NCBI GenBank assembly: GCA_937919825.1
Contig: CALFPA010000133.1
Coordinates: 1-64,000 of the forward strand
DNA: 64,000 nt
Source of the DNA: an uncultured Spartobacteria bacterium
GTDB taxonomy: Bacteria > Verrucomicrobiota > Verrucomicrobiia > Chthoniobacterales > Terrimicrobiaceae
Direction: 5' to 3'
Part shown: piece by piece, positions 41,730-55,177 of the stretch
Layout of the letters: every line of letters begins with the position of its first letter
Position numbering within the stretch: the stretch's first letter is position 1
Made by a program: the position numbers and the translations under genes
Notes under the pieces: generated by a model
What the model saw: only the letters and a program-made list of their open reading frames with translations
The model's database searches: none
Told to the model about the DNA's origin: nothing

Positions 41730-41747
41730 TCAACCGTGTCGAATCAA

Positions 41748-42812
41748 ATGGTCCAAACAGCAAAAGCCAGTGTTTCGAGCCGCCCATTCGGCAAACTGCC
41801 CGATGGCCGCGAAACCCGTTTATTCACTCTCTCGAACGGATGCGGACTCGCCTGTGACATCACGGACTACGGCGGCATCGTCACCGCGATCCGCGTCACG
41901 CGCCCCGATGGGTCGGTGGTCGATGTGGTTCTCGGATTCAATACCCTCGAGGGCTACCTCGGCCCGCATCCCTATTTTGGAACGCTGATCGGCCGGGTCG
42001 CGGGCCGCATCAGCGGGGCGAAATTCCAGCTTGATGGGTGCGAGTATCCACTGGCCGCCAACAACGCGCCCAACCACCTCCACGGCGGCCCCGGCGGGTT
42101 CGACAAGCAACTCTGGCAGGCGGAGGTTTCGACAAAGGAAAGCGAGGCGTCCCTGCGCCTCTCCTGTCTGAGCCCGGACGGGGAGGAGGGCTATCCCGGC
42201 AATGTGCGCGTCACGGTGGTTTATTCCCTCACGGAAAAAAACGAATTCGTCATTCGCTACGAAGCCGAGACCGATCAGGCCACGCCGCTGAGCCTCACGA
42301 ACCATTCGTATTTCAATCTCGCCGGAGAAGCCTCCGGGAATGTGGGTGGCCATGTGCTCCAAATTTTCTCGGACGAAATTGCCGCCACCGACGAGGCCAT
42401 GACCCTGCTCGGCACCCGTGTGCCCGTCGTCGCTCCGGGAAATGATTTCAACCAACCCCGCCGACTGGCGGATGCGATTCCCGAGCTGTTGAATAACCAT
42501 GGCGACAATTATTTCATTCGCCGCGCTGCCAGTGGGCAACTCGTGCCCGCCGCCATTTTGCAAGATCCGGCCAGCGGGCTCACGATGACCACACTCACCA
42601 CGCAGGATTGCGTCCAGCTTTACAGCGCGGCGATCCTCGACGGCACGCTCCTCGGCAAATCCGGTGTGCCCTACGCCAAACACGCCGGCCTCTGCTTGGA
42701 ATGTCAGGGCTGCCCCGGCGCCGTCCACGACCCCGCGCTCGGCAACATCATCCTCCGCCCCGAGGAACGCTACGATCACACGACCCTCTACGCCTTCCGC
42801 TTTTCGGAATAG
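41748..42812 (+). CDS. galM: Aldose 1-epimerase (galactose mutarotase)
   Basis: 354 residues from ATG 41748; an in-frame GTG at 41736 is an alternative start. It interconverts alpha and beta anomers of galactose and similar sugars. Catalytic residues: His in NHLHGGPGG, His in NHSYFNLAG and the base Glu in CLECQGCPG. There is no signal peptide, so it acts in the cytoplasm. Its position after an alpha-galactosidase fits processing of released galactose. Confidence 0.94.
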   Translation: MVQTAKASVSSRPFGKLPDGRETRLFTLSNGCGLACDITDYGGIVTAIRVTRPDGSVVDVVLGFNTLEGYLGPHPYFGTLIGRVAGRISGAKFQLDGCEYPLAANNAPNHLHGGPGGFDKQLWQAEVSTKESEASLRLSCLSPDGEEGYPGNVRVTVVYSLTEKNEFVIRYEAETDQATPLSLTNHSYFNLAGEASGNVGGHVLQIFSDEIAATDEAMTLLGTRVPVVAPGNDFNQPRRLADAIPELLNNHGDNYFIRRAASGQLVPAAILQDPASGLTMTTLTTQDCVQLYSAAILDGTLLGKSGVPYAKHAGLCLECQGCPGAVHDPALGNIILRPEERYDHTTLYAFRFSE

Positions 42813-42933: not shown

Positions 42934-43599
42934 CTAGTGGATTTTGCCTAAAAATTTGGCCACGGCCTGGGAGCGGGAGTGGACATGGAGTTTTTTGTAA
43001 ATGCGGGTGGTGTGGGTCCGCAAGGTGTCGTGGGCGATTTTGATTTCCTCGGCGATTTCCTTCATCAGGTAGCCCTTGGCGAGCAGTTCGAGAATTTCTT
43101 TTTCGCGGGTGGAGAGGTTGCTGGAGACTTCGGATTGGGCCGTCGCGGGGGTCTCGCGGAAGGTGTGGACGATCCGTCGGGCGATGGCGCTGCTCATCGG
43201 GGCGCCACCGTCCCGCACTTCTTGGATGGCCTGCTGAAGCCTCTCGGAGGTGACGGGCTTGATGAGGTAGCCGATCGCGCCTGCCGACAGCGCCTTGAAG
43301 ACGACTTCGGTGTCATCGAACACCGTGATCATGACAATCTGAAGCTCGGGCAGGAGCGCGGAGAGGTGCCCCGCGCATTCCACGCCGCCCATGCCTGGCA
43401 GGTTGATATCGAGGAAAACCAAGTCCGGAGCGAGGGCGGGAAATTCCTCCAGGGCCTGCTCGGCGGATTTTGCAATTCCGACGCACAGGATCCCGCGGCC
43501 GGCTTCTTCGAGCATGGACCGGAGGTCTTCCGCGAGGTGGGGATCGTCTTCGACGATTCCGATGCGGGTGGGTGGCGGTGTGGGAAGTGGGTCGTTCAT
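42934..43599 (-). CDS. NarL-family response regulator
   Basis: 221 residues from ATG 43599, overlapping the kinase stop (ATGA). Receiver (about 12-130): E17-D18-D19, phospho-acceptor D64 in VFLDINLPG, and Lys in YLIKPV. LuxR helix-turn-helix (about 155-215): LSTREKEILELLAKGYLMKEIAEEI (two pieces), HDTLRTHTTRIYKKL. It should be activated by the glycosidase-like sensor kinase. Likely targets are the nearby GH36-GH29 and galM genes, an inference from position only. Confidence 0.92.
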   Translation of the reverse strand: MNDPLPTPPPTRIGIVEDDPHLAEDLRSMLEEAGRGILCVGIAKSAEQALEEFPALAPDLVFLDINLPGMGGVECAGHLSALLPELQIVMITVFDDTEVVFKALSAGAIGYLIKPVTSERLQQAIQEVRDGGAPMSSAIARRIVHTFRETPATAQSEVSSNLSTREKEILELLAKGYLMKEIAEEIKIAHDTLRTHTTRIYKKLHVHSRSQAVAKFLGKIH

Positions 43600-46526
43600 G
43601 GCCGATTTGGTTTCAATAATGGCAGGCTGAAGGTGATTTTCGTTCCGGCGCCCGGCGTGCTGTTGATCGTGCATGTGCCGCCGATTTCCTTCAGCCGCGC
43701 TTGCATATTCACCAATCCATTTCCTGACGAGTCTGTGGAGGTGGGATCGAAGCTGCAACCATTGTCGGCAATGGCGATCACGAGCGCGCCGGCGGCGATG
43801 GAGATTTGCAGAGTGATCAACGCGGGGCGGCCATGGCGGACGGCATTTCGGAAGGCTTCGCGCGTGGCGAGATAGAGTGTGAGGCGAGATTTTGAGGAGA
43901 GGTGGAGTGGCGGGATGTCGTCCGGAATTTCCACGCGGAGGCGGATGCCGGAGTCGGCGAGGTAATTCTCGGCGAAGCGCTGGAGATAGTCGGCGAGGTG
44001 GGGGAGGTAGTCGCGTTCAGGGTTCACCGCCCAGACGATTTCGTTGAGCCGGCGAAGGCTCTCGGTGGATGTCTGCTGAAGGGCTTGGGCCATGCTGCGG
44101 ACGGCCTCGTGCGTGCTGCCAATCTTTTCGCCCAGCATGGAAATGTGGCTGAGCCCCGAACCAATCTCGTCGTGCAGGTCGCGGGCGATGCGGGCCCGCT
44201 CCTCGTGGCGGGCCTTGGATAGCTCGAGGGCGTTGTTTGAGCGGAGCCAATCAAAGTATTTCCAAACCCCAAATCCGAGGCTGGCGGCAAGCAAGACCAA
44301 TAGTGCCCAAAACCAAGCCTGGCGCTGCGCCGGCAGGGGGAGGTTCAACTCCACCAACTGGGTCGTTCCGAAGGCGCGGTTGCGGATATCGATTCGCCAG
44401 GCGTTCTCTCCAGCGGATTCGATGCCGGTGATTTCGCATCCGGTGGCGGAGGAGGGGAGGGGTCGGATTTTGCTGTAAACAAAAAGGCTCCCTGACGAGG
44501 CCCCGGCATCCGTGAGTTCAATCGCCATGCCAGAATCGAGGGCGGTGACATTTTTGATCTCCGCCGCGCCACAGTAGATATGGAAATTCGAGCCGATCAG
44601 AATCGGTTTCTTCAAATCGTGCGGCAACTCGGTGAAGACGAGATGCTCCGAAGCCGTGGCGGCGAGGAAGCGGGTGGTGTAGCTCTCCTCTGCCACGCCG
44701 AGGTAGGCATTGTCCCAAAAGGACCACACGGCGTAGCGCGCTCCGGACTGCCCGCCGATTTCGGCGAAATCAAGGGATACAGTGTCCTCCCATTCACTGG
44801 GATTCCACAGCAAGGCGACAGTCCACGACCCCCAAGGGCGGGCAACCCGGCCGACGAGTCGGGGCCACTCGGTGGAGGTGCCGAGGTCGAGGATTTCCGT
44901 CTCCTCGCGCGCCGGCGGTTGGAGGATTTCGAAATTGCGGATGTAGGATTGGAACTTCGGAAGAAACCAGTGGTCGGCCGTGAATGCGTTCCCACAGGAA
45001 AGGCCCACCATGCTCAGCCAGGTGCGGGTGATGGGCCATCCGCCAGCCAAGGGGCTGACATCGCGCAACTCCGTGGCGAGGATAGACACATCATTGTCCA
45101 CGGCATACCAGCGCCGGTTGAGCGGGAAGGCCCAGAGGGAGTCCTTGATGACATCGCGGAGTCCCTGGCGTTCGATGTTCGGCCCCGACCGGGTGGAGTC
45201 CATAAATCCGAGCCCCGCCCGCTTCGATCGAATCATGCAGGAGAGCAAATAAGTCGATTCGCCTGCAGCGGAGCGGATCGCCTCGAAATGCTTCCGGTGC
45301 CTCTCAAAGAGGGTGAGGTTTTGGCCGTCGGGCTTGGCCTCGGCAAAATGATAGACGAGTTTCAGGAACCGGAAGCCCTTGTCTGCTGCGGCTTGGATCG
45401 CACGGAGGTTTTCCTCAGAGGGATTCAAGTCGTTGTTCAGAGACAACCGAATGCCTGGAGTGGACTGGATCGCGGAGATGCGTTCGACAAAACGCGGCAG
45501 TTGTTTGGCGATTTCCTCAGGGGTTTGGCCCAATGACTCGAGCGAACGGTCCAGCACGATGGCTTGCGGCCGCAGGCGACCCCGCGAGGCGCGGACGAAA
45601 TCGATCGCCGCAAAAACATCTTTTTCCGTGCTGCGGAATTCCGAGAAGACATCCATCCAACCATCGAGGGCGCCCAGTGAGGTGCGTGCCCCGTGGGTTC
45701 GGGCGACCCACTCCACCCAGCGGCGCTTGGCCTCCCGGGGCGGCTCGAAAAACAAGCCGAGCTGTTGCCCCCAGCGAACCTCCCTAGGTGGGAGCTCCGC
45801 GGGGAACATTTCAGATTCGACAAAAAAATTGTCGCAGGAAACCTCGCCCTGGACGAAAGCGACTGGCTTGCCGACCGGGCCGATGAAAACCCCGACTCCC
45901 TCCCTTCGATAAATCCCGAACTCCTCCCGCACTGGGATGGTTTTTTCGAGTTCGGCGAATGTTTTCGTGAGGACGCCTGGATTCTGCGCCGTGAGAATCC
46001 AATCCTGCAAACTCCCCGCACCCGCCCACGGAGTGCCGATCGGGGCGTTATTTTTTTTGGGACGATCGATCATCCGCAGTTGAATCAGGGTGACGCTGCG
46101 ATCCCCAAGGTTGCGAATTCCCGCGTTGATCAGCAGGCAGGGCGTTTCCTCGAAGCGATCGATCCTCAGCATGAGGTCGATGCCGAGTTCCTCGAAACGG
46201 ACGGTGGAGATCTCCGCTTGGGTCTTGCCATAGGGAACGGTCCGGTCGGCAAAGGCTTCGGCTCCCACAGGGCGGCCTTCCCGCGAATCAAGGAAATGCC
46301 GCTGCCCGTCGATTTCGATTTCGGCACCGAAATGCATGTCCCCCATTTCCAAACCCGCCGCTTGAATCCAGAAAGATCGCCCCTCGGCGCGCATCTCGAA
46401 GCCGACCTCCGCGCCCGAGCCAGCGGCGCGGAATACCGCCAAGAGCGTGGCCAGACAAAAAACGAAACACCTCGCTCGGGTCGAAGCGTGCACAAAAAAA
46501 CGCCCCGCTCCATAGGCAGGATTCAT
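43596..46526 (-). CDS. Sensor histidine kinase with a degenerate GH36-like periplasmic sensor
   Basis: 976 residues from ATG 46526. Signal-like segment (CFVFCLATLLAVFRAAGSGA), then about 690 periplasmic residues, one TM helix (about 734-754) and a NarX-type kinase: HisKA_3 with H785 in ARDLHDEIGSG and a HATPase (FRNAVRHGRP; DNGCSFDP; GNGLVNMQARL). The periplasmic part aligns by eye with the GH36 module encoded next door: IRSAAGESTYLLSC against VREAAGPDVFLLGC, and MDSTRSGPN against LDAMRVGPD. The nucleophile position reads V391 (FLKLVYHF) and the acid/base reads N450, so catalysis should be lost while sugar binding may remain. It probably senses galactosides and signals to the coupled response regulator. 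Confidence 0.85.
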   Translation of the reverse strand: MNPAYGAGRFFVHASTRARCFVFCLATLLAVFRAAGSGAEVGFEMRAEGRSFWIQAAGLEMGDMHFGAEIEIDGQRHFLDSREGRPVGAEAFADRTVPYGKTQAEISTVRFEELGIDLMLRIDRFEETPCLLINAGIRNLGDRSVTLIQLRMIDRPKKNNAPIGTPWAGAGSLQDWILTAQNPGVLTKTFAELEKTIPVREEFGIYRREGVGVFIGPVGKPVAFVQGEVSCDNFFVESEMFPAELPPREVRWGQQLGLFFEPPREAKRRWVEWVARTHGARTSLGALDGWMDVFSEFRSTEKDVFAAIDFVRASRGRLRPQAIVLDRSLESLGQTPEEIAKQLPRFVERISAIQSTPGIRLSLNNDLNPSEENLRAIQAAADKGFRFLKLVYHFAEAKPDGQNLTLFERHRKHFEAIRSAAGESTYLLSCMIRSKRAGLGFMDSTRSGPNIERQGLRDVIKDSLWAFPLNRRWYAVDNDVSILATELRDVSPLAGGWPITRTWLSMVGLSCGNAFTADHWFLPKFQSYIRNFEILQPPAREETEILDLGTSTEWPRLVGRVARPWGSWTVALLWNPSEWEDTVSLDFAEIGGQSGARYAVWSFWDNAYLGVAEESYTTRFLAATASEHLVFTELPHDLKKPILIGSNFHIYCGAAEIKNVTALDSGMAIELTDAGASSGSLFVYSKIRPLPSSATGCEITGIESAGENAWRIDIRNRAFGTTQLVELNLPLPAQRQAWFWALLVLLAASLGFGVWKYFDWLRSNNALELSKARHEERARIARDLHDEIGSGLSHISMLGEKIGSTHEAVRSMAQALQQTSTESLRRLNEIVWAVNPERDYLPHLADYLQRFAENYLADSGIRLRVEIPDDIPPLHLSSKSRLTLYLATREAFRNAVRHGRPALITLQISIAAGALVIAIADNGCSFDPTSTDSSGNGLVNMQARLKEIGGTCTINSTPGAGTKITFSLPLLKPNRP

Positions 46527-46630: not shown

Positions 46631-47527
46631 TTACCAAAAAATCCTAGGGGCGATGTCCGGAGGGAGGGGATTGGGGGGCGGGGCTTCTTGTTTGAGCAAG
46701 GATCGCCTCGTTTCCGTGGGGGATTTTCCGTAAACTCGGGAGAAGCAGCGGGTGAAATAGAGGGGATTTTCGAAGCCGCATCGGTCCGCGATTTCCTTGA
46801 TCGCCAGACTGGATCGTCCGAGCAGGGCCATGGCGAGTTGGAGCTTGAGGAGGCGAAATGTCTCCATGGGCGCATGCCCCAGGGCGGATTGAAAAAGGCG
46901 GCAGAGGTGTTTTTCCGTCACGCCGGCGCGCTTGGAAACCTCCCCGAGTTGCAGGGCGTGATGCGGATTCGTTTCGAGAATCGACCTCATGAAATTCAAC
47001 GACGCGTGGACTTGCTCGGGCAGGCGGTGGGCCACACTCAGCCCCTCCTCGCCGGGAGGTTTCAGCAGAATTCCCAAGAGGCACTCCATGAAAAGACTCT
47101 CCTCGGGCTTGGCGCTCAGGATCGGCCAAGCCGTTTCCCCATGCGAGGCGATGCGGCCGATCAAATGGCGCAACATCGGAGCAATCACGGGGTCGGGATT
47201 TTCGATAAGAACCGGCCAGTTCTCGAGCGCGGGCCAGTCGCGGGGAAGGCTCTCGATGTCGAAATGCACATAGGCATGCCGCGTGGGAGATTTTGCATCC
47301 CAAGTGTAGGCTTCCTGAAAACCGGGGCGTGCGAGAATGAAACTGCCGGGCGGTGCCTGCCACGCCTCGTCGCCCAATTGGTAGCTGGCCGTTCCCTCGA
47401 TCATCAAAACCAACTCGAAATCCTCGAGGACGCGCGGCGGCAGTTTGTCCCCGGGCCGGTAATGAACCACCGAGCCGTAGATATACTGGAGGGCCAACCG
47501 ATCGGATGCGCGAATTGGAGATGACAT
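46631..47527 (-). CDS. AraC-family transcriptional regulator
   Basis: 298 residues from ATG 47527. The N-terminal cupin (about 15-110; YQLGDEAWQAPPGSFILARPGF) is the sensor of AraC-type sugar regulators. Two helix-turn-helix motifs at the C terminus are clear (LGEVSKRAGVTEKHLCRLF; AIKEIADRCGFENPLYFTRCF, then GKSPTE). Located 104 bp upstream of the sensor kinase on the same strand and divergent from the desaturase operon, so it may control either. The upstream 26 bp at 47541-47566 are nearly palindromic around AACTTCGCAAGTT. Confidence 0.92.
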   Translation of the reverse strand: MSSPIRASDRLALQYIYGSVVHYRPGDKLPPRVLEDFELVLMIEGTASYQLGDEAWQAPPGSFILARPGFQEAYTWDAKSPTRHAYVHFDIESLPRDWPALENWPVLIENPDPVIAPMLRHLIGRIASHGETAWPILSAKPEESLFMECLLGILLKPPGEEGLSVAHRLPEQVHASLNFMRSILETNPHHALQLGEVSKRAGVTEKHLCRLFQSALGHAPMETFRLLKLQLAMALLGRSSLAIKEIADRCGFENPLYFTRCFSRVYGKSPTETRRSLLKQEAPPPNPLPPDIAPRIFW

Positions 47528-47540
47528 AGAAAAGCGAGGA

Positions 47541-47566
47541 CGCTTTAAACTTCGCAAGTTATAGCG
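47541..47566. promoter_or_regulatory. Imperfect palindrome in the AraC-desaturase divergent region
   Basis: Centre AACTT-CGC-AAGTT (47548-47560), flanked by CGCT on the left and AGCG on the right. It lies 14-39 bp upstream of the AraC start, where a site for autoregulation or divergent control would be expected. The binding protein is not known. Confidence 0.45.
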
Positions 47567-47731
47567 TTCCGGGCCGAGTGGAATGCGAATTTTGTGCATA
47601 TTTACCCAACTCCTGTCCATTGGCAAAAGGCGACGAATGTTTATCGTGGTTCCTGTCTGCGGAGGGTTGGGTCATTGCTCAAATCCTTCCGGCCATTTCC
47701 AAAACCCAGAAACTCCACCCAAAAAACCACC

Positions 47732-50011
47732 ATGAGCGACAACCATGCCACTGCCACGCTAACGCGTCCGCCCAAGAGCCTCGACTACAGCCTCACCGGA
47801 GAAAATTCCACGAAGGCGATCGAACGCGGCCTCGCCGAGGCCGATTGGTATCAAAGCCCCGTGCCGCGCGCCGAGATGCGCAAGCTCCTCGAACGCCGCG
47901 ACGGCCCGGCCATTCGCGACACGATTTTGTGGTTCGCTCTTCTGGGCCTGACGGGGTGGGGGACTTTCGCGCTGTGGGGGACCTGGTGGGTGGTGCTGCC
48001 CTACGCGGCTTACGCGGTGCTTTACGCCACGGCGTCCGATTCCCGTTGGCACGAGGCCGGGCACGGAACGGCCTTCCGCACAGATTGGCTGAATAATTTC
48101 CTCTATGAAGTCGCCTCGTTCATGGTTCTGCGAGAATCCGTGGTCTGGCGTTGGAGCCACACCCGGCATCACAGCGACACGATCATCGTCGGCCGCGATC
48201 CGGAAATTCAAATTCCCCGCCCGCCAAAGCTCCGGGAGCTTTTTTTCGGCCTTTTCGCCATCGGGGTTTATCGGGGTTATCTTCCCGGGTTGCTTCGCCA
48301 TGCCGCTGGCAAAATTTCCGCCGAGGAGCGGACCTACATCCCCGAGACGGAATTTTCAAAAATCACGCGCAACGCCCGCATCATCGTGGCGATCTACGCG
48401 GCGACGATTGCCCTAGCCGTCGCCATTCATAGCTGGGTGCCCATTTTCCTGATCATCCTGCCGCACTTTTTCGGCACTTGGTTGATGATCGTGCACAACA
48501 CCTGCCAGCACGCGGGTCTCGCCGAGAATGTCCTCGACCACCGCTTGAACTGCCGCACCGTTTACATGAACCCGATCAGCCGGTTTATCTACTGGAACAT
48601 GAACTACCATGTGGAGCACCACATGTTCCCGCTCGTGCCGTTCCATTCCCTTTACAAGCTCCATGCGCTCGTCAAGGACGACTGCCCGCCGCCCTATCCT
48701 TCGATTCTATCGGCCTGGCGCGAGATTTTGCCGACCATCATTCGCCAGAAAAAAGACCCGACCTATCATGTGAAGCGCGTCCTCCCGCCGCCGAAAGAGC
48801 GCGCCGTGGAGGGCCTCGTCTCGGGCGATGCCAAGCCGGATGCCGAAGGCTGGGTGGAGGTTTGCGCCCAGGCCGATCTCGGCAAGGAGGATGTCCTTCG
48901 TTTCGACCATGGCCGAAAAACCTTTGCCCTCATCCGCGATGCGGCGGGCAGCCTTTACGCAACCGATGGCATTTGCACCCACGGCAACAACCACCTCGCC
49001 GAAGGCCTCGTAAAAGGCGGCATCATCGAGTGCCCGAAGCACAATGGCCGCTTCAACCTCGCCGACGGCTCGCCCGCCCGCGCGCCGATCTGCCGCGGCC
49101 TCGCCACTTATCCGATCGAAGTCCGCAACAATCGAATTTACCTCAATATCAATAAGCCCGGCGGCGCCGGTGCGCGGGAACAAAAAAGCCGCACCCTGCG
49201 TGTCGTGAGCTCGGCCAATGTCTCGACCTTCATTCGCGAGATCGTGCTCGAACCGGTGGATGGCCCGCTTTCCTACGAGCCCGGCGATTACTTGCAATTC
49301 GCCATCCCCGCCTACGGCGAGATCGCCTGCCGCAGCTTCGATATCCCTGAGCCCTACGCCTCAGTCTGGCGTCAGCACGGAATCTTCGACCTCGTGGCGA
49401 AAAACCCCGATGGCGCGAAGCGCAATAACTACTCGATCGCCAGCCACGCGGGCGAAGGCACGATCCGCCTCAATGTGCGCCTCGCCACGCCGCCTCCCGG
49501 CCAGGAATGCCCCACCGGCACCGGCTCCAGTCACATGTGGGCGCTCAAACCGGGCGACACCGTGGATGCCATCGGGCCGTTCGGTGATTTCCACATCAAG
49601 CCGACGCGCAAGGAAATGGTCTACATCGGCGGCGGCGCGGGCATGGCCCCGTTGCGCGCCCACCTCACGCACCTGCTCGAAGTCGAAAAATCCGCCCGCC
49701 GGGTTTCCTTCTGGTATGGCGCCCGCTCGCGTCAGGAATTGTTCTACACCGATCTCTTCGAGGAACTCGCCGCGAAGCATCCGAACTTCACCTTCGAAAC
49801 CGCCCTCTCGGCTCCTCTCGACGAGGACGGCTGGTCCGGCCACACCGGCTTTATCCATGAGGTCGTTCTCGCCAAAGCCCTCGAAAATCATGCAAACATC
49901 GGCGGCGTCGAATTCTACCTCTGCGGACCGCCGATGATGATCAAGGCCTGCACGAAAATGCTCGCCGACCTCGGCGTTCCACCCGCGCACATCGCCTACG
50001 ACGAATTCTAA
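47732..50011 (+). CDS. Membrane fatty-acid-desaturase-like oxygenase fused to Rieske ferredoxin and NqrF-like reductase
   Basis: 759 residues. Part 1 (about 1-370) is a membrane di-iron desaturase/hydroxylase with four or more helices and three histidine boxes: HEAGH (107-111), HTRHH (143-147), HVEHH (293-297). Part 2 (about 375-475) is a Rieske domain with the [2Fe-2S] ligands C415/H417 and C434/H437. Part 3 (about 485-759) is a ferredoxin-reductase-type module with the flavin motif NYSIAS, nucleotide loop GGGAGMAPLR (from 633) and C-terminal YLCGPPMMIKACTKML, closest in pattern to NqrF. One chain therefore holds NAD(P)H oxidation, electron relay and O2-dependent oxidation. The lipid or other substrate is unknown. 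Confidence 0.9.
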   Translation: MSDNHATATLTRPPKSLDYSLTGENSTKAIERGLAEADWYQSPVPRAEMRKLLERRDGPAIRDTILWFALLGLTGWGTFALWGTWWVVLPYAAYAVLYATASDSRWHEAGHGTAFRTDWLNNFLYEVASFMVLRESVVWRWSHTRHHSDTIIVGRDPEIQIPRPPKLRELFFGLFAIGVYRGYLPGLLRHAAGKISAEERTYIPETEFSKITRNARIIVAIYAATIALAVAIHSWVPIFLIILPHFFGTWLMIVHNTCQHAGLAENVLDHRLNCRTVYMNPISRFIYWNMNYHVEHHMFPLVPFHSLYKLHALVKDDCPPPYPSILSAWREILPTIIRQKKDPTYHVKRVLPPPKERAVEGLVSGDAKPDAEGWVEVCAQADLGKEDVLRFDHGRKTFALIRDAAGSLYATDGICTHGNNHLAEGLVKGGIIECPKHNGRFNLADGSPARAPICRGLATYPIEVRNNRIYLNINKPGGAGAREQKSRTLRVVSSANVSTFIREIVLEPVDGPLSYEPGDYLQFAIPAYGEIACRSFDIPEPYASVWRQHGIFDLVAKNPDGAKRNNYSIASHAGEGTIRLNVRLATPPPGQECPTGTGSSHMWALKPGDTVDAIGPFGDFHIKPTRKEMVYIGGGAGMAPLRAHLTHLLEVEKSARRVSFWYGARSRQELFYTDLFEELAAKHPNFTFETALSAPLDEDGWSGHTGFIHEVVLAKALENHANIGGVEFYLCGPPMMIKACTKMLADLGVPPAHIAYDEF

Positions 50012-50021
50012 AAATCCTGAT

Positions 50022-50876
50022 ATGCCCACCGCACCCACTCTAAAAATCCACATCAACTACTGGTCGCTCCTCGACGAAGGCGATCCAACCACCGAGCAGG
50101 GCCTGCGCACTCATTTGTCGCTGGTCCGGGACGCCGGATTCCAAGGCTACTGCGGGACCTCTGACTTCCCGAAGATCAAGGAATTGATTCAGGAATACGG
50201 TTTGCGGTTCGGCGGGGCTTTTGACGCCGGCCGTGTCGAGCAATTCGCCCCCAAGATCGCCGCCCTCATGGCCATCGACAACGGCCCGATCAATTGCCAA
50301 CTCGCCGACCATGACACGCCAACCGACGAGGCGGTCGCCCTGACGATCGCCTTGATGGCGGAGGCAAAAAAACAGAACGCGCCAGTCCATCTCGAAGTCC
50401 ACCGCGACACCTGCACCGAGACCCCGGAAAAAGCCGTCGCCATCGTGGAGGGCGTCCTCAAGGCCACGGGCCAGCTGCCCCTCATCAACTACGATTTCTC
50501 GCACCCGGCCATCGTGAAGCACCTCCTGCCCGAGAACTACATCTCGCGCCTCTTTGACGAAACCAACATCCCCGTCTTCCAACAGTCCACCCTCTGGCAC
50601 ATGCGCCCCTTCAACGGGCACCATTGCATGATTCCGATCACCGACGGCAAAGGCAACTTCTCGCCCGAATACGAGGACTGCCGCCCGTTCATCCGCCAGG
50701 CCCTCAAGCACTGGCTGGCCGGCCCGCGCCCGACCAACGAACTCTGGGTCGTGCCCGAGCAAGGCACCACCATCGGCTACAACCTGAGTTGCTTCCCAAA
50801 TGTCTGGCAGGACACCATTGTCCTCGGCAACGACATCAAAAAAATCTGGAACGAACTGCTCGCCGAGCAGTCCTGA
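50022..50876 (+). CDS. Sugar phosphate isomerase/epimerase-like TIM-barrel protein
   Basis: 284 residues, 10 bp after the desaturase fusion, so clearly co-transcribed. The pattern (AGFQGYCGTSDFPKIKELIQEYGL in pieces, APVHLEVHRDTCTETPEKA, LPLINYDFSHPAIV, FQQSTLWHMRPFNGHHCMIP) matches the xylose-isomerase-like/AP-endonuclease-2 superfamily, with acidic and His residues that could bind a metal. There is no signal peptide. Proteins of this class isomerise, epimerise or cleave sugars. Pairing with an oxygenase suggests it handles the oxygenated product or its precursor, which is an inference. Confidence 0.8.
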   Translation: MPTAPTLKIHINYWSLLDEGDPTTEQGLRTHLSLVRDAGFQGYCGTSDFPKIKELIQEYGLRFGGAFDAGRVEQFAPKIAALMAIDNGPINCQLADHDTPTDEAVALTIALMAEAKKQNAPVHLEVHRDTCTETPEKAVAIVEGVLKATGQLPLINYDFSHPAIVKHLLPENYISRLFDETNIPVFQQSTLWHMRPFNGHHCMIPITDGKGNFSPEYEDCRPFIRQALKHWLAGPRPTNELWVVPEQGTTIGYNLSCFPNVWQDTIVLGNDIKKIWNELLAEQS

Positions 50877-50927
50877 TTTGCCCGCGAGACTTTCAACAAC
50901 GCGCTGGCTTTTTGGAACAATTCCGAG

Positions 50928-52112
50928 ATGAAGCCTTTGTCTCCCAGCGAAGCGGAGGAGCGGATTTTTTCGCTTCGAGGAACGGTGCCGTCCGTGAGTT
51001 GCGCGCTGGAGGCGGCGGCTGGAAAATTTTTGCGGCAGGACATCACCGTGGACCACGACCTTCCTCCGTTTGACCGAGTCATGATGGATGGGCTGGCGGT
51101 GCGCTCGAGCGGGTGCCGCCGGTTTTTGGTCCAGGGCGTAGCGCCTTCGGGCCAGCCGCAGATTGCCCTTCCTCCCGCCGAAGACGCGGCGATCGAAGTC
51201 ATGACCGGCGCGGTGCTGCCGGACGGAGCCGATGCGGTTCTGCCCTGCGAGTGGTATGACTTGCACGAAGGCGTGGCGGTTCTTCATCCCGGAAAGAAAA
51301 CGCGGGCGGGGGAGTTTATACATCGGCAAGGCTCGGATCACCGTGCGGGCGACGCGTTGCTCCGCTCGGGAGTGCGTCTCGGGCCAGTCGAAATTGGCAT
51401 CGCGGCGGCGTGTGGTTGTGCCGAAATTCAAGTGGCCGCTCCGCTGCGGATCGCGGTTCTCGGAACGGGTGACGAGTTGGTTCCGGTCGGGAAGGTTCCG
51501 GAGGCCGGCCAGATTCGCCGCTCCAATACGCACGCCCTCGCGGCGGCGCTGCAGTTGGCGGGGCATGGTCCAACTGCGACCCGATGCCTGCGTGATGATC
51601 CCGAGGATTTGCGGCAGGGGCTCACGGCGGTTTTGTCCGAGAACGATCTGGTGGTTCTCACCGGAGGTGTGTCCAAAGGGCGCTGGGATTTGGTGCCGGA
51701 AATTCTCGTCAGTCTCGGCGCGGCATCGATCCTTCAGGGCATCGCCCAACGCCCGGGAAAACCCATGGGAGTATGGCAAATGCCCGCTGGTCAGGTGGTG
51801 TTCGGGCTCCCCGGCAACCCGGTGTCGGCCCTTGTCTGCCTGCACCGCTATGTCCTTCCCGCGCTGTCGCACTGGAGCGGCGAGTCGACGGCGCCGCGGA
51901 CACGCCGGATTCTGCGCGGGGGATTCACCAAGCCGCCGGGGTTGACGCTTTTTCTGCCGGTCCGGGAAATGTCCAACGGCACGGTGGCTCCCGCTCCGGT
52001 CGCCAATTCGGGGGACTTCGCAGGTCTCACCGGTAGCGACGGCATCGTCGAGGTGGATGAAAGTTTTGCAGAGGGCGAGGCCGCTCCTTACTTTCCTTGG
52101 CTCGCGAAATGA
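50928..52112 (+). CDS. moeA: Molybdopterin molybdotransferase
   Basis: 394 residues, normal MoeA length. It inserts molybdate into adenylylated molybdopterin. Seen: LPPFDRVMMDGLAV, GTGDELV (the MoCF-like domain), the GGVSKGRWD loop, and GLPGNPVSALV, with the C-terminal domain following. It heads the plus-strand Moco operon; its stop overlaps moaC as ATGA. No mogA/moaB homologue is in the window, although MoeA needs adenylylated substrate. Confidence 0.95.
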   Translation: MKPLSPSEAEERIFSLRGTVPSVSCALEAAAGKFLRQDITVDHDLPPFDRVMMDGLAVRSSGCRRFLVQGVAPSGQPQIALPPAEDAAIEVMTGAVLPDGADAVLPCEWYDLHEGVAVLHPGKKTRAGEFIHRQGSDHRAGDALLRSGVRLGPVEIGIAAACGCAEIQVAAPLRIAVLGTGDELVPVGKVPEAGQIRRSNTHALAAALQLAGHGPTATRCLRDDPEDLRQGLTAVLSENDLVVLTGGVSKGRWDLVPEILVSLGAASILQGIAQRPGKPMGVWQMPAGQVVFGLPGNPVSALVCLHRYVLPALSHWSGESTAPRTRRILRGGFTKPPGLTLFLPVREMSNGTVAPAPVANSGDFAGLTGSDGIVEVDESFAEGEAAPYFPWLAK

Positions 52113-52612
52113 AACCGCCAAAAGAGGAACCCGCACCGAGCTGGACTCATCTGGATTCAAACAAGAATCCAGCCATGGTCGACATCTCGGGAAAACAACC
52201 CTCCGCCCGCACCGCCGTCGCCGAGGCCGAGGTTTGGCTGCCTCCGGAAATCGTCGCGCAAATGCAGGATGGTGACATCCGCTCGCCGAAAGGGCCTGTT
52301 TTTCACACCGCGATCATCGCGGGAACGATGGCCGCCAAGCAGACATCGAATCTCATCCCGTTCTGCCACGCGCTTCCGTTGGAAGGTTTGCGTATCACGA
52401 TTGATCCCCCGAAAAATGGAATTCTGAAAATCCAGGCGCTGGCAAAAACCAGCCACAAGACCGGCGTCGAGATGGAGGCTCTGACAGCAGCGAGTGTCGC
52501 CGCGCTGGCCGTTTACGACATGTGCAAGGCCTTCTCGCCCGCCATGGAAATCCGCCGCGTCCGCCTGCTCGAAAAGCGTGGCGGAAAGACCGACTACACC
52601 GCTGGCTTATGA
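52109..52612 (+). CDS. moaC: Cyclic pyranopterin monophosphate synthase
   Basis: 167 residues. It converts the MoaA product into cyclic pyranopterin monophosphate. Motifs: SARTAVAEAEVWL, GTMAAKQTSNLIPFCHALPL, the catalytic SHKTGVEMEALTAAS and YDMCKAF. The start ATG 52109 overlaps the moeA stop and its stop overlaps the next start, so the operon is fully coupled. The N terminus carries about 20 extra residues. Confidence 0.96.
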   Translation: MKPPKEEPAPSWTHLDSNKNPAMVDISGKQPSARTAVAEAEVWLPPEIVAQMQDGDIRSPKGPVFHTAIIAGTMAAKQTSNLIPFCHALPLEGLRITIDPPKNGILKIQALAKTSHKTGVEMEALTAASVAALAVYDMCKAFSPAMEIRRVRLLEKRGGKTDYTAGL

Positions 52613-53433
52613 CTCCGCGTCTGAACGGACTCCTTCTTGCCGGTGGGAAAAGCTCCCGCATGGGTCGTGACAAAGCCTCGATGGTTGTCGGGGGCGATGG
52701 CATCACCCAGGCCCAGCGCGGGGCGGATCTGCTCGGCAAATTCTGCGAACGCACCTTCGTTTCCCTCCGCGATGGCCAGACCGCGCCCGAAGGGGCGCAG
52801 GGACTCGAGGTTTTGGTGGACTCCCCGTTGGCCCAGGGTCCGCTTTCCGGAATCCTCGCGGCTTTCCAAAAAGACCCTGAAGCAGCCTGGCTCGTGCTCG
52901 CCTGCGATCTTCCGTTTGTTTCCGAGCAGGTGCTGTCGGACTTGATCGCCCACCGAAAAACAAACGACGCGCCGCCTTTTGTCGCGTTCGCCTCATCAAG
53001 CGACAGCCTCCCGGAGCCGCTTTGCGCGATTTACGAACCCTCGGCGCGGGCGGTGTTGGAGCGTCACGCCGCGCGTGGCCACTTCTGCCCGCGCCACATC
53101 CTGATCGAGGAAAAAGCCGATTTGATCGCGTTGCCAGAGGGAGCGGCGGAAGCCCTGACAAACTTGAACACGCCACAGGACCTGGAGGAAGCGGGCGGTT
53201 TCCCCATCCACCTCTCGTGGTTCGGGCATCTTTCGGAGCTGCGCGGACTGAGCGACGAAACCATTCGCACCAAAACCGAGACAGCCGGGGCCTTGCTCCA
53301 CGAGCTTTCCCAACGCCATGGCCTCGACCTCTCCACCACCCGCCTGGCGGTGAATGACGAGTTCGCTTCGGGCGACCAACCGCTTCGTCCTGGCGACAAG
53401 ATCGCCCTCCTTCCGCCGTTCTCCGGCGGCTGA
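52609..53433 (+). CDS. MobA-MoaD fusion: Moco guanylyltransferase with C-terminal sulfur carrier
   Basis: 274 residues. Residues about 1-195 are MobA: LLLAGGKSSRMGRDKA, ACDLPFVSE and the later EKADLIALPEG; it adds GMP to the cofactor. Residues about 198-274 are a MoaD-like ubiquitin fold (IHLSWFGHLSELRGLSDE, LRPGDKIALLPPFSGG), ending with the essential Gly-Gly whose thiocarboxylate donates sulfur in molybdopterin synthesis. The frame is continuous and the protein ends exactly at GG. MoaE follows at once, its normal partner. No moeB activating enzyme is seen here. Confidence 0.92.
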   Translation: MTPRLNGLLLAGGKSSRMGRDKASMVVGGDGITQAQRGADLLGKFCERTFVSLRDGQTAPEGAQGLEVLVDSPLAQGPLSGILAAFQKDPEAAWLVLACDLPFVSEQVLSDLIAHRKTNDAPPFVAFASSSDSLPEPLCAIYEPSARAVLERHAARGHFCPRHILIEEKADLIALPEGAAEALTNLNTPQDLEEAGGFPIHLSWFGHLSELRGLSDETIRTKTETAGALLHELSQRHGLDLSTTRLAVNDEFASGDQPLRPGDKIALLPPFSGG

Positions 53434-53437
53434 CTCC

Positions 53438-53872
53438 ATGAGTTTTCGCATCCATCCCCATCCGATCGATCCAGCGCCTCTCCGACAGGAGTTGGAGGGA
53501 AACGAACACGGCGGCTTGGTTTTTTTCGAGGGCCGCGTGCGGAACCACCACGAGGGCCGGTCGGTGGTCGGGCTTCACTACCAAGCCTATCTGGAATTGG
53601 CAGAGAAGGAGGGACGCCGGTTGCTGGAAGAAATTTCCACCAAACACGGCGTGCGCGCGGCAGCCATTCACGCCACGGGTGATCTCCAGCCCGGCGACCT
53701 CGCCGTTTGGGTCGGCGCGGCGGCAGCGCATCGCGAGGAGGCGTTCGCGGCGTGCCGGGAGTTGATCGATGCCATCAAGGCCCGCGTTCCGATTTGGAAA
53801 CGCGAAACCTATGCCGACGGCCATGGCGAGTGGGTCGAGGGATGCGCGTGCGGGTCGCAGCATTCGCATTGA
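53438..53872 (+). CDS. moaE: Molybdopterin synthase large subunit
   Basis: 144 residues. MoaE signatures: GGLVFFEGRVRNHHEGR, LHYQAYLELAEKE, AAAIHATGDLQPGD, AAHREEAFAACRELIDAIK and VPIWKRETYADG. With the MoaD module of the preceding gene it forms molybdopterin synthase. It begins 4 bp after that gene and is followed within 3 bp by the MOSC-FdhD gene. Confidence 0.95.
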   Translation: MSFRIHPHPIDPAPLRQELEGNEHGGLVFFEGRVRNHHEGRSVVGLHYQAYLELAEKEGRRLLEEISTKHGVRAAAIHATGDLQPGDLAVWVGAAAAHREEAFAACRELIDAIKARVPIWKRETYADGHGEWVEGCACGSQHSH

Positions 53873-53875
53873 TTT

Positions 53876-55177
53876 ATGCTTCTTCGCATCCACGACATCT
53901 GGATTTCGCCCGGCCACGACTTCAAGGGACGCCACGGCCTCGGCCGCGAAACTCATGGCACCATCCGACTCGACGAAGCCCGCTGCGAGGCGGGCATGGG
54001 GATCGTTGGCGACCGCTACCACGGCAAGGATCCGAACTCCAAAACCCAAATAACCCTTCTCTCCCTCGAGGTGGTGGAGGAAATGTGTCGCCACCTGGGA
54101 ATTCCACATCTCGATTATTCGGTGCTTCGCCGGAATGTTCTGGTCTCCGGCGTGGATTTGAACGGCCTGATTGGAAAAAAATTCTCCATCGGCGATGTCG
54201 AGTTCGAGGGAGTGGAGGAGTGCAAGCCGTGTTACTGGATGGACGAGGCGGTTGGCCCCGGAGCGAATGCCTTTCTTGCCGGACGCGGTGGCCTGCGTTG
54301 CCACATTCTGACTGGCGGAACCCTGCGATGCGGCAAAGTCGAATTAAACCTACCCGAAGCCCGCTCGAAGCCCTGCCCGGCCTTGCTCCAGGAGGAAACA
54401 AAAACGCGGGAAGTCGTCGACGACCTTACTGTCGAGCGGGCACTGCAAATCCTGCTCAACGGGTCGCTTTATTCCGTAACCATGCAAACGCCCGGAGATG
54501 AGGGGCTCCTCGTTCGGGGGCTTCTCCACTCGGAGGGGATCGACACCACGGGCTACCGGGTCGCTTTCCAAACCGAGCGGAAAAATGCGACCCTCATTGA
54601 GGTTTGTATCGACGATCCATCGCACTCGGGTTCGACCCGGCGATTGGCGTCAACCTCGTCTTGCGGGCTTTGCGGCAAGGAATCCCTCGATCCGTCGTTC
54701 CTCGAAATCCCACCCGTCTCCAAAAATATTCCGATCGACGCCACGCGTCTTCGCGCGATCCATGCCGCCGTGCGGGCGCGTCAGTCCACCTTCTCCGGCA
54801 CCGGCGGCTGCCACGGCGCGGCGGCCGCCACGGCCAGCGGTGAGATTCTTTGCGTGTTCGAGGACATTGGACGCCACAACGCGGTGGACAAAGTCGTGGG
54901 GTTCCTGCTCGAAAACGAAATCCTCGCTTCGGCCGCCGTGCTGACAGTCAGTGGTCGGGTTTCCTTCGAGATTGTTCAAAAATGTGCCCGCGCAGGCATT
55001 CCCGTGCTTTCGGCGATTTCTGCACCCTCTTCCCTCGCTGTGGAAACAGCGGAACGCTGGGGGATCACGCTCGCCGGATTTTGCCGCGACAACCGCGCCA
55101 CTTTTTACAGCAGCCTCCATCGTGTCGAATCGACTACAGAATCTTTGTCCAAAGATTCGCCGCCACGAGGAGAATAA
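53876..55177 (+). CDS. MOSC domain fused to FdhD sulfurtransferase
   Basis: 433 residues. Residues about 1-165 are a MOSC domain (GIVGDRYHGKD, EECKPCYWMDEAVGP, GRGGLRCHILTGG), a Moco/sulfur carrier fold. Residues about 170-433 are FdhD: the redox CxxC in STSSCGLCGKESL, GTGGCHGAA, FEDIGRHNAVDKVVG, VSGRVSFEIVQKCARAGIP. FdhD passes sulfur from a cysteine desulfurase to the Moco of formate-dehydrogenase-type enzymes. Joined to a MOSC module, it suggests handling of both sulfur and cofactor for the YdeP-like enzyme of this cluster. The whole is one frame. Confidence 0.9.
   Translation: MLLRIHDIWISPGHDFKGRHGLGRETHGTIRLDEARCEAGMGIVGDRYHGKDPNSKTQITLLSLEVVEEMCRHLGIPHLDYSVLRRNVLVSGVDLNGLIGKKFSIGDVEFEGVEECKPCYWMDEAVGPGANAFLAGRGGLRCHILTGGTLRCGKVELNLPEARSKPCPALLQEETKTREVVDDLTVERALQILLNGSLYSVTMQTPGDEGLLVRGLLHSEGIDTTGYRVAFQTERKNATLIEVCIDDPSHSGSTRRLASTSSCGLCGKESLDPSFLEIPPVSKNIPIDATRLRAIHAAVRARQSTFSGTGGCHGAAAATASGEILCVFEDIGRHNAVDKVVGFLLENEILASAAVLTVSGRVSFEIVQKCARAGIPVLSAISAPSSLAVETAERWGITLAGFCRDNRATFYSSLHRVESTTESLSKDSPPRGE

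Follow-up and report, generated by a model that had tools for sequence, protein, structure and literature searches.

Results

The Kinase and Its Neighbours

The window, i.e., the whole stretch of 64,000 nucleotides that was analysed, carries on its minus strand a gene (43596..46526) for a protein of 976 amino acids, P0001, with an ATG start codon at 46526 and a stop codon at 43598-43596. The protein is composed of a signal peptide, with a hydropathy peak at residues 18-39, an extracytoplasmic part of about 695 amino acids, a single transmembrane helix located by hydropathy (residues 736-756; 44259..44321), and an intact HisKA_3/HATPase kinase (residues 776-970; 43617..44201). Pfam places HisKA_3 at residues 776-837 (E=6.5e-10) and HATPase_c at residues 882-970 (E=4.4e-11), both above cut-off, and the H-box RIARDLHDE as well as the N-box REAFRNAVRH are intact. 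The stop codon of the kinase gene overlaps by 4 nt (ATGA) with the ATG of the following minus-strand gene, which encodes a NarL-type response regulator of 221 amino acids (42934..43599) with a receiver and a LuxR-type DNA-binding domain (Pfam). Among NCBIfam models, the kinase matches UhpB, NarQ, and NarX best and the regulator NarL, in each case below the curated cut-off. With its H-box, N-box, ATPase domain, membrane anchor, and cognate NarL/LuxR-type regulator, P0001 is, as judged from its sequence, a sensor histidine kinase of the HisKA_3 (NarX/DesK) type.

Two plus-strand genes, identified by Pfam, are convergent to the regulator gene. One encodes an aldose 1-epimerase (41736..42812), and the other P0002 (36847..41655), a fusion enzyme of 1602 amino acids with GH36, NPCBM, GH29 fucosidase, and F5/8 domains and intact catalytic residues; both are candidate target genes of the P0001 system. 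An AraC-type regulator (46631..47626, minus strand; Pfam) is encoded just upstream of P0001, and beyond the glycan-related neighbours there are housekeeping genes. The stretch 47594-50011 (plus strand) encodes a chain of 805 amino acids that combines fatty acid desaturase, Rieske, and FAD/NAD-binding reductase domains. Two long minus-strand ORFs of 706 and 533 amino acids (50040-52160 and 52703-54304), whose status as genes is doubtful, gave no match in Pfam.

Homology between the Sensor and GH36 Enzymes

When Pfam is applied to the sensor part of P0001, it returns no glycoside hydrolase match, no Reg_prop repeats, and no Y_Y_Y domain, from which follows that the relationship described here escapes routine annotation. 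When, instead, 13 sensors are compared as a profile with 12 GH36 enzymes by hhalign, the match has E=3e-115 and extends over 690 columns, which amounts to the sensor in its full length. The original prediction, which had read the periplasmic part as a GH36-type domain, is thereby borne out, and by profile comparison the P0001 sensor is a complete homologue of GH36. It can be divided into an N-terminal region with approximate limits (residues 40-280; 45687..46409), a degenerate catalytic barrel from which the beta3-alpha3 loop is deleted (residues 285-540; 44907..45674), and a C-terminal part (residues 541-735; 44322..44906), which is the most strongly conserved portion of the sensor. The barrel is also reached by phmmer, which matches residues 382-451 of P0001, containing both catalytic strands, to the Thermotoga alpha-galactosidase GalA (TmGalA) in the PDB (1zy9, 5m0x; E about 1e-3).

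Searched with tblastn, the genome itself yields a GH36 paralogue on contig C116 (E=2.8e-46), and the GH36 enzymes match the solved GH36 alpha-galactosidases 6lcj (Thermus) and 1zy9 across the barrel. A scan of the genome's contigs found relatives of the kinase domain only, owing to the specificity of the peptide patterns that were used. The sensor had originally been aligned by eye with the enzyme next door; the homology is real, but P0002 is related to it only distantly (17-23% identity), and the closest enzyme, 38% identical, is a GH36 protein of 790 amino acids from another family of the same class (locus L142). AlphaFold models made from the window sequence alone, either of the sensor paired with P0002 (pLDDT 33) or of the barrel alone (pLDDT 35), have too low confidence for use.

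Distribution of the Fusion

A survey of homologues for the same fusion, as had been proposed, identified 23 fusions, spread over 16 genomes of the window's phylum, so that there are at least 23 such sensors. Six of them occur in the window's genus, where 6/16 congeners carry one, and the others occur in further families of the same class and in a second class of the phylum, probably Kiritimatiellia, to which family f46 with the carriers G351, G795, and G796 belongs. The kinase is included in 22 of the 23, the remaining one (L055) reaching its contig end before the kinase, and these 22 full fusions are open, with intact H-boxes, across the phylum. Some genomes hold two or three fusions, and at L108:4162-11496 (plus strand) two different pseudo-GH36 kinases stand in tandem, each with its own regulator. 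A sample of 296 genomes from the phylum to which G939 (a Bacteroidota record) belongs contained no fusion; the profile that was used did recover fusions in other searches, but this set had no positive control, so that the empty answer shows little. L003 (G000:C141:2622-3536), a 435-aa open frame on a short contig, matches no more of the sensor than its N-terminal part (residues 52-296), and the frame's own N-terminal part appears sulfatase-like by eye.

In all 19 loci where the contig continues past the kinase (the window and 18/18 others), a regulator gene is adjacent. The other neighbours are usually carbohydrate-degrading, esterases included, and differ between loci, as seen in a screen that had no random-gene control. 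By Pfam, GH29 genes are neighbours in the window and in L109, L112, and L141, GH95 adjoins L107, GH36 with an esterase adjoins L110, GH59/GH127 adjoins L111, GH43 adjoins L109, a rhamnosidase-like domain adjoins L052, and sulfatases adjoin L054 and L138.

Loss of the Active Site

In TmGalA, O2 of galactose is in contact with D387 and R383, O3 with R383, Y191, and K325, O4 with K325, D220, and W257, and O6 with D221, while W190 and W257 make hydrophobic contacts and D327 is the nucleophile (PMC5132143). The 23 fusions were compared with 14 enzymes residue by residue, with positions mapped onto TmGalA. In an active GH36 enzyme the Asp nucleophile stands at the end of beta4 and the Asp acid/base at the end of beta6. 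In P0001, the place of the nucleophile D327 is taken by V391 (45354..45356) and that of the acid/base D387 by N450 (45177..45179), all pocket codons given here being on the minus strand. These two assignments, which come from phmmer and the alignment, and those of D401 and D483 in P0002 had been correctly made from the letters alone. The alignment further equates K389 (45360..45362) and R446 (45189..45191) with the sugar-contacting K325 and R383, and D326-R327 (45546..45551) with the D220-D221 pair that binds O4 and O6, so that the second Asp has become Arg; R360 (45447..45449) stands where Trp257 is found in the pocket.

All nine galactose-contact residues are kept in 14/14 enzymes and in 0/23 fusions. 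The nucleophile is lost in 22 of the fusions and the acid/base in 21; L140 retains the former and L128 and L135 the latter, and in no fusion are both catalytic acids kept together. The equivalents of K325 and R383 are retained in 22/23 and 21/23 cases, respectively, and that of D220 is D in 18 and E in three more. W190 is kept in 13/23, Y191 in 9/23, D221 in 2/23, and W257 in none. In addition, a barrel loop of about 40 residues (beta3-alpha3) is absent from 23/23 fusions, where the spacer from beta3 to beta4 has 25-39 residues, compared with 70-86 in the enzymes. One fusion (L141:6532-9018, plus strand) has a beta4 region, QHIHRQERFHV, unlike that of all others, which may reflect a local frame error or divergence.

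How selective the loss is can be seen from the barrel alignment, where ten columns have an acidic residue in 13 or all 14 of the enzymes. Columns 391, 450, 327, and 294 are lost in the fusions, while columns 326, 423, 477, 479, 518, and 533 persist in 20-22 of the 23. Three of the lost columns (391, 450, and 327) are catalytic or sugar-binding, and the fourth, 294, comes directly after the Y191 position. It follows that the active site, and not the fold, has been given up. Profile homology, the comparison of fusions with enzymes, and the sensor tree described below thus uphold the proposal of a catalytically dead, GH36-derived domain on a NarX-type kinase.

The net charge over the nine pocket positions is -2 in every enzyme, 0 to +3 in the fusions, and +3 in P0001. 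A global shift in charge can be rejected as the cause, since the whole sensor carries a similar charge in both groups, -0.06 per 100 aa in the fusions and -0.18 in the enzymes. Fusions from outside the window's genus show unrestrained variation at the acid/base position (N, G, M, V, E, T, D, Q, S), which would be expected of a pocket whose ligand changes from fusion to fusion, or of one that has no ligand. Within that genus the fusions have also lost W190 and Y191, two residues that in TmGalA pack against the sugar, so that little of the original sugar site is left there.

Origin of the Fusion

When the catalytic columns are left out, the tree of the sensors unites the 23 fusion sensors in one clade (95/98). 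Its sister, with support 100/100, is the L142 enzyme (L142:8428-10797, minus strand), which stands alone without a kinase, has all catalytic and contact residues and the loop, and adjoins GH29 and GH28 genes; no regulator was found at it in the 18-kb locus. As the tree places it, this enzyme is a living relative of the ancestor of the putative receptor.

The kinase domains of the fusions do not form one clade (p-AU 0.003), a result that is tentative because the kinases were sampled by similarity to that of P0001. A single fusion event followed by simple descent is rejected on this ground, and swapping of sensor or kinase is, again tentatively, likely. The related kinases that were scanned mostly bear Reg_prop and Y_Y_Y sensors. 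Taken together with the lack of monophyly, this suggests that a sensor of that type gave way to the pseudo-GH36 module, perhaps more than once.

The ratio dN/dS is about 0.27 for P0001 versus L052 and about 0.16 for L108 versus L109; the pair L053/L055 has too low divergence and too few changes for selection to be judged. That P0001 is a decaying gene is rejected, given purifying selection in the diverged pairs and open fusions conserved across the phylum.

Discussion

P0001 is probably a membrane sensor kinase in which a whole GH36 protein that has lost catalysis serves as a receptor for glycans and controls genes of glycan degradation. Reading the sensor as an enzyme turned receptor is supported as the best account of the pattern of residue and loop loss, since the losses are limited to active-site residues and a single loop of the barrel, and fold, reading frame, kinase, and regulator are all kept. 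The proposed mechanism is as follows. The enzymes of the cell would release a glycan fragment, which would bind uncut in the remodelled pocket of the barrel, near K389, R446, and D326. Once bound, it would rearrange the dimer across the single membrane-spanning helix and thereby switch autophosphorylation, the phosphoryl group would be transferred to the partner NarL-type regulator, and the regulator would adjust the expression of neighbouring glycan-degradation genes, here the epimerase gene and that of the GH36-GH29 enzyme. The change in pocket charge from -2 to neutral or positive hints at an acidic ligand, such as a sulfated or uronic sugar, and this is the weakest step of the explanation.

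How far does the retained part of the pocket speak for binding? The GH36 domain could instead be a structural scaffold, with an old pocket that holds no sugar, and signals could be sensed by another surface, e.g., that of residues 541-735, or by docking of a partner protein. The C-terminal part is indeed the best conserved of the sensor, the pocket residues are variable, and W190, Y191, and W257 are all lost in the window's genus. Against an idle pocket, K389 is retained in 22/23 fusions and R446 in 21/23 although their catalytic partners are gone, the D326 position is D or E in 21/23, and the gene neighbours point to glycans. We regard such a scaffold as an unlikely arrangement, with a minor chance that still has to be reckoned with. 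It is very improbable that the glycosidase activity of the sensor is weakened or changed rather than lost, and that signalling accompanies turnover of a substrate. The GH10 domain of RsgI6 does retain very low activity (PMC4711584), and the nucleophile is still present in one fusion and the acid/base in two, but no fusion has both acids, P0001 has V and N in their places, and Trp257 and the beta3-alpha3 loop are gone from 23/23. Loss of catalytic residues would also be seen in a gene undergoing decay, or in an ORF that joins an enzyme to a kinase as an artefact of annotation; with 22 full fusions open and intact in their H-boxes, purifying selection in diverged pairs, and a kinase gene that overlaps its regulator gene, the chance of this is negligible.

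Beyond the reading of P0001 as a glycan receptor, a wider scheme can be formulated for the phylum. A kinase family would have been made once from GH36 by removal of the catalytic acids and the substrate loop and by inversion of the pocket charge, to give receptors for acidic (sulfated or uronic) glycan fragments, and the module would later have moved between kinase chassis. This scheme in its entirety is speculative and has clearly less than an even chance of being right.

The nearest precedent in idea is RsgI6 of Clostridium thermocellum, an anti-sigma factor with a GH10 domain whose activity is very low and whose binding is kept, so that sensing domains derived from glycoside hydrolases are already known (PMC4711584). 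In RsgI6 an extracellular glycoside hydrolase domain is the carbohydrate-sensing module of a transmembrane regulator (PMC4711584), as it would be in P0001; the difference is that here the domain is GH36, the regulator a histidine kinase, and the catalytic acids are lost across a clade of 23 members. With the GH36 alpha-galactosidases (TmGalA, 1zy9/5m0x; Thermus, 6lcj), P0001 shares profile homology over the whole sensor, the barrel strands, and the equivalents of K325, R383, and the first Asp, D220; it differs from them in lacking the nucleophile, the acid/base, D221, W257, and the beta3-alpha3 loop, and in being fused to a membrane kinase. From NarX, NarQ, and UhpB with their NarL-type regulators it differs in having an unrelated sensor and signal, while HisKA_3 and HATPase_c are common to all. 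The Reg_prop/Y_Y_Y (HTCS-like) sensor kinases, which control polysaccharide utilization (PMC3243724), are similar in their extracytoplasmic sensor of about 700 amino acids, their single membrane helix, and their carbohydrate gene context, and their HisKA_3-type kinase is the nearest to the fusion kinases. They have a double beta-propeller and Y_Y_Y where the fusions have pseudo-GH36, and in HTCS the regulator lies within the hybrid, whereas here it is a separate NarL protein. By analogy, then, the fusion loci resemble the polysaccharide-utilization control exerted by these systems. A search of open-access papers found no description of a kinase with a pseudo-GH36 sensor, in agreement with what had been suspected.

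If the receptor reading is right, P0001 would be a clear case of a whole glycosidase turned into a receptor of two-component signalling, with an intact enzyme relative in hand. Such receptors, which Pfam does not flag as GH36 and routine domain annotation overlooks, would make it possible to predict the glycans to which particular genes respond in bacteria otherwise difficult to study. Adjoining another fusion kinase, a GH36-NPCBM-SASA esterase protein that resembles P0002 is encoded at L110:11558-15463.
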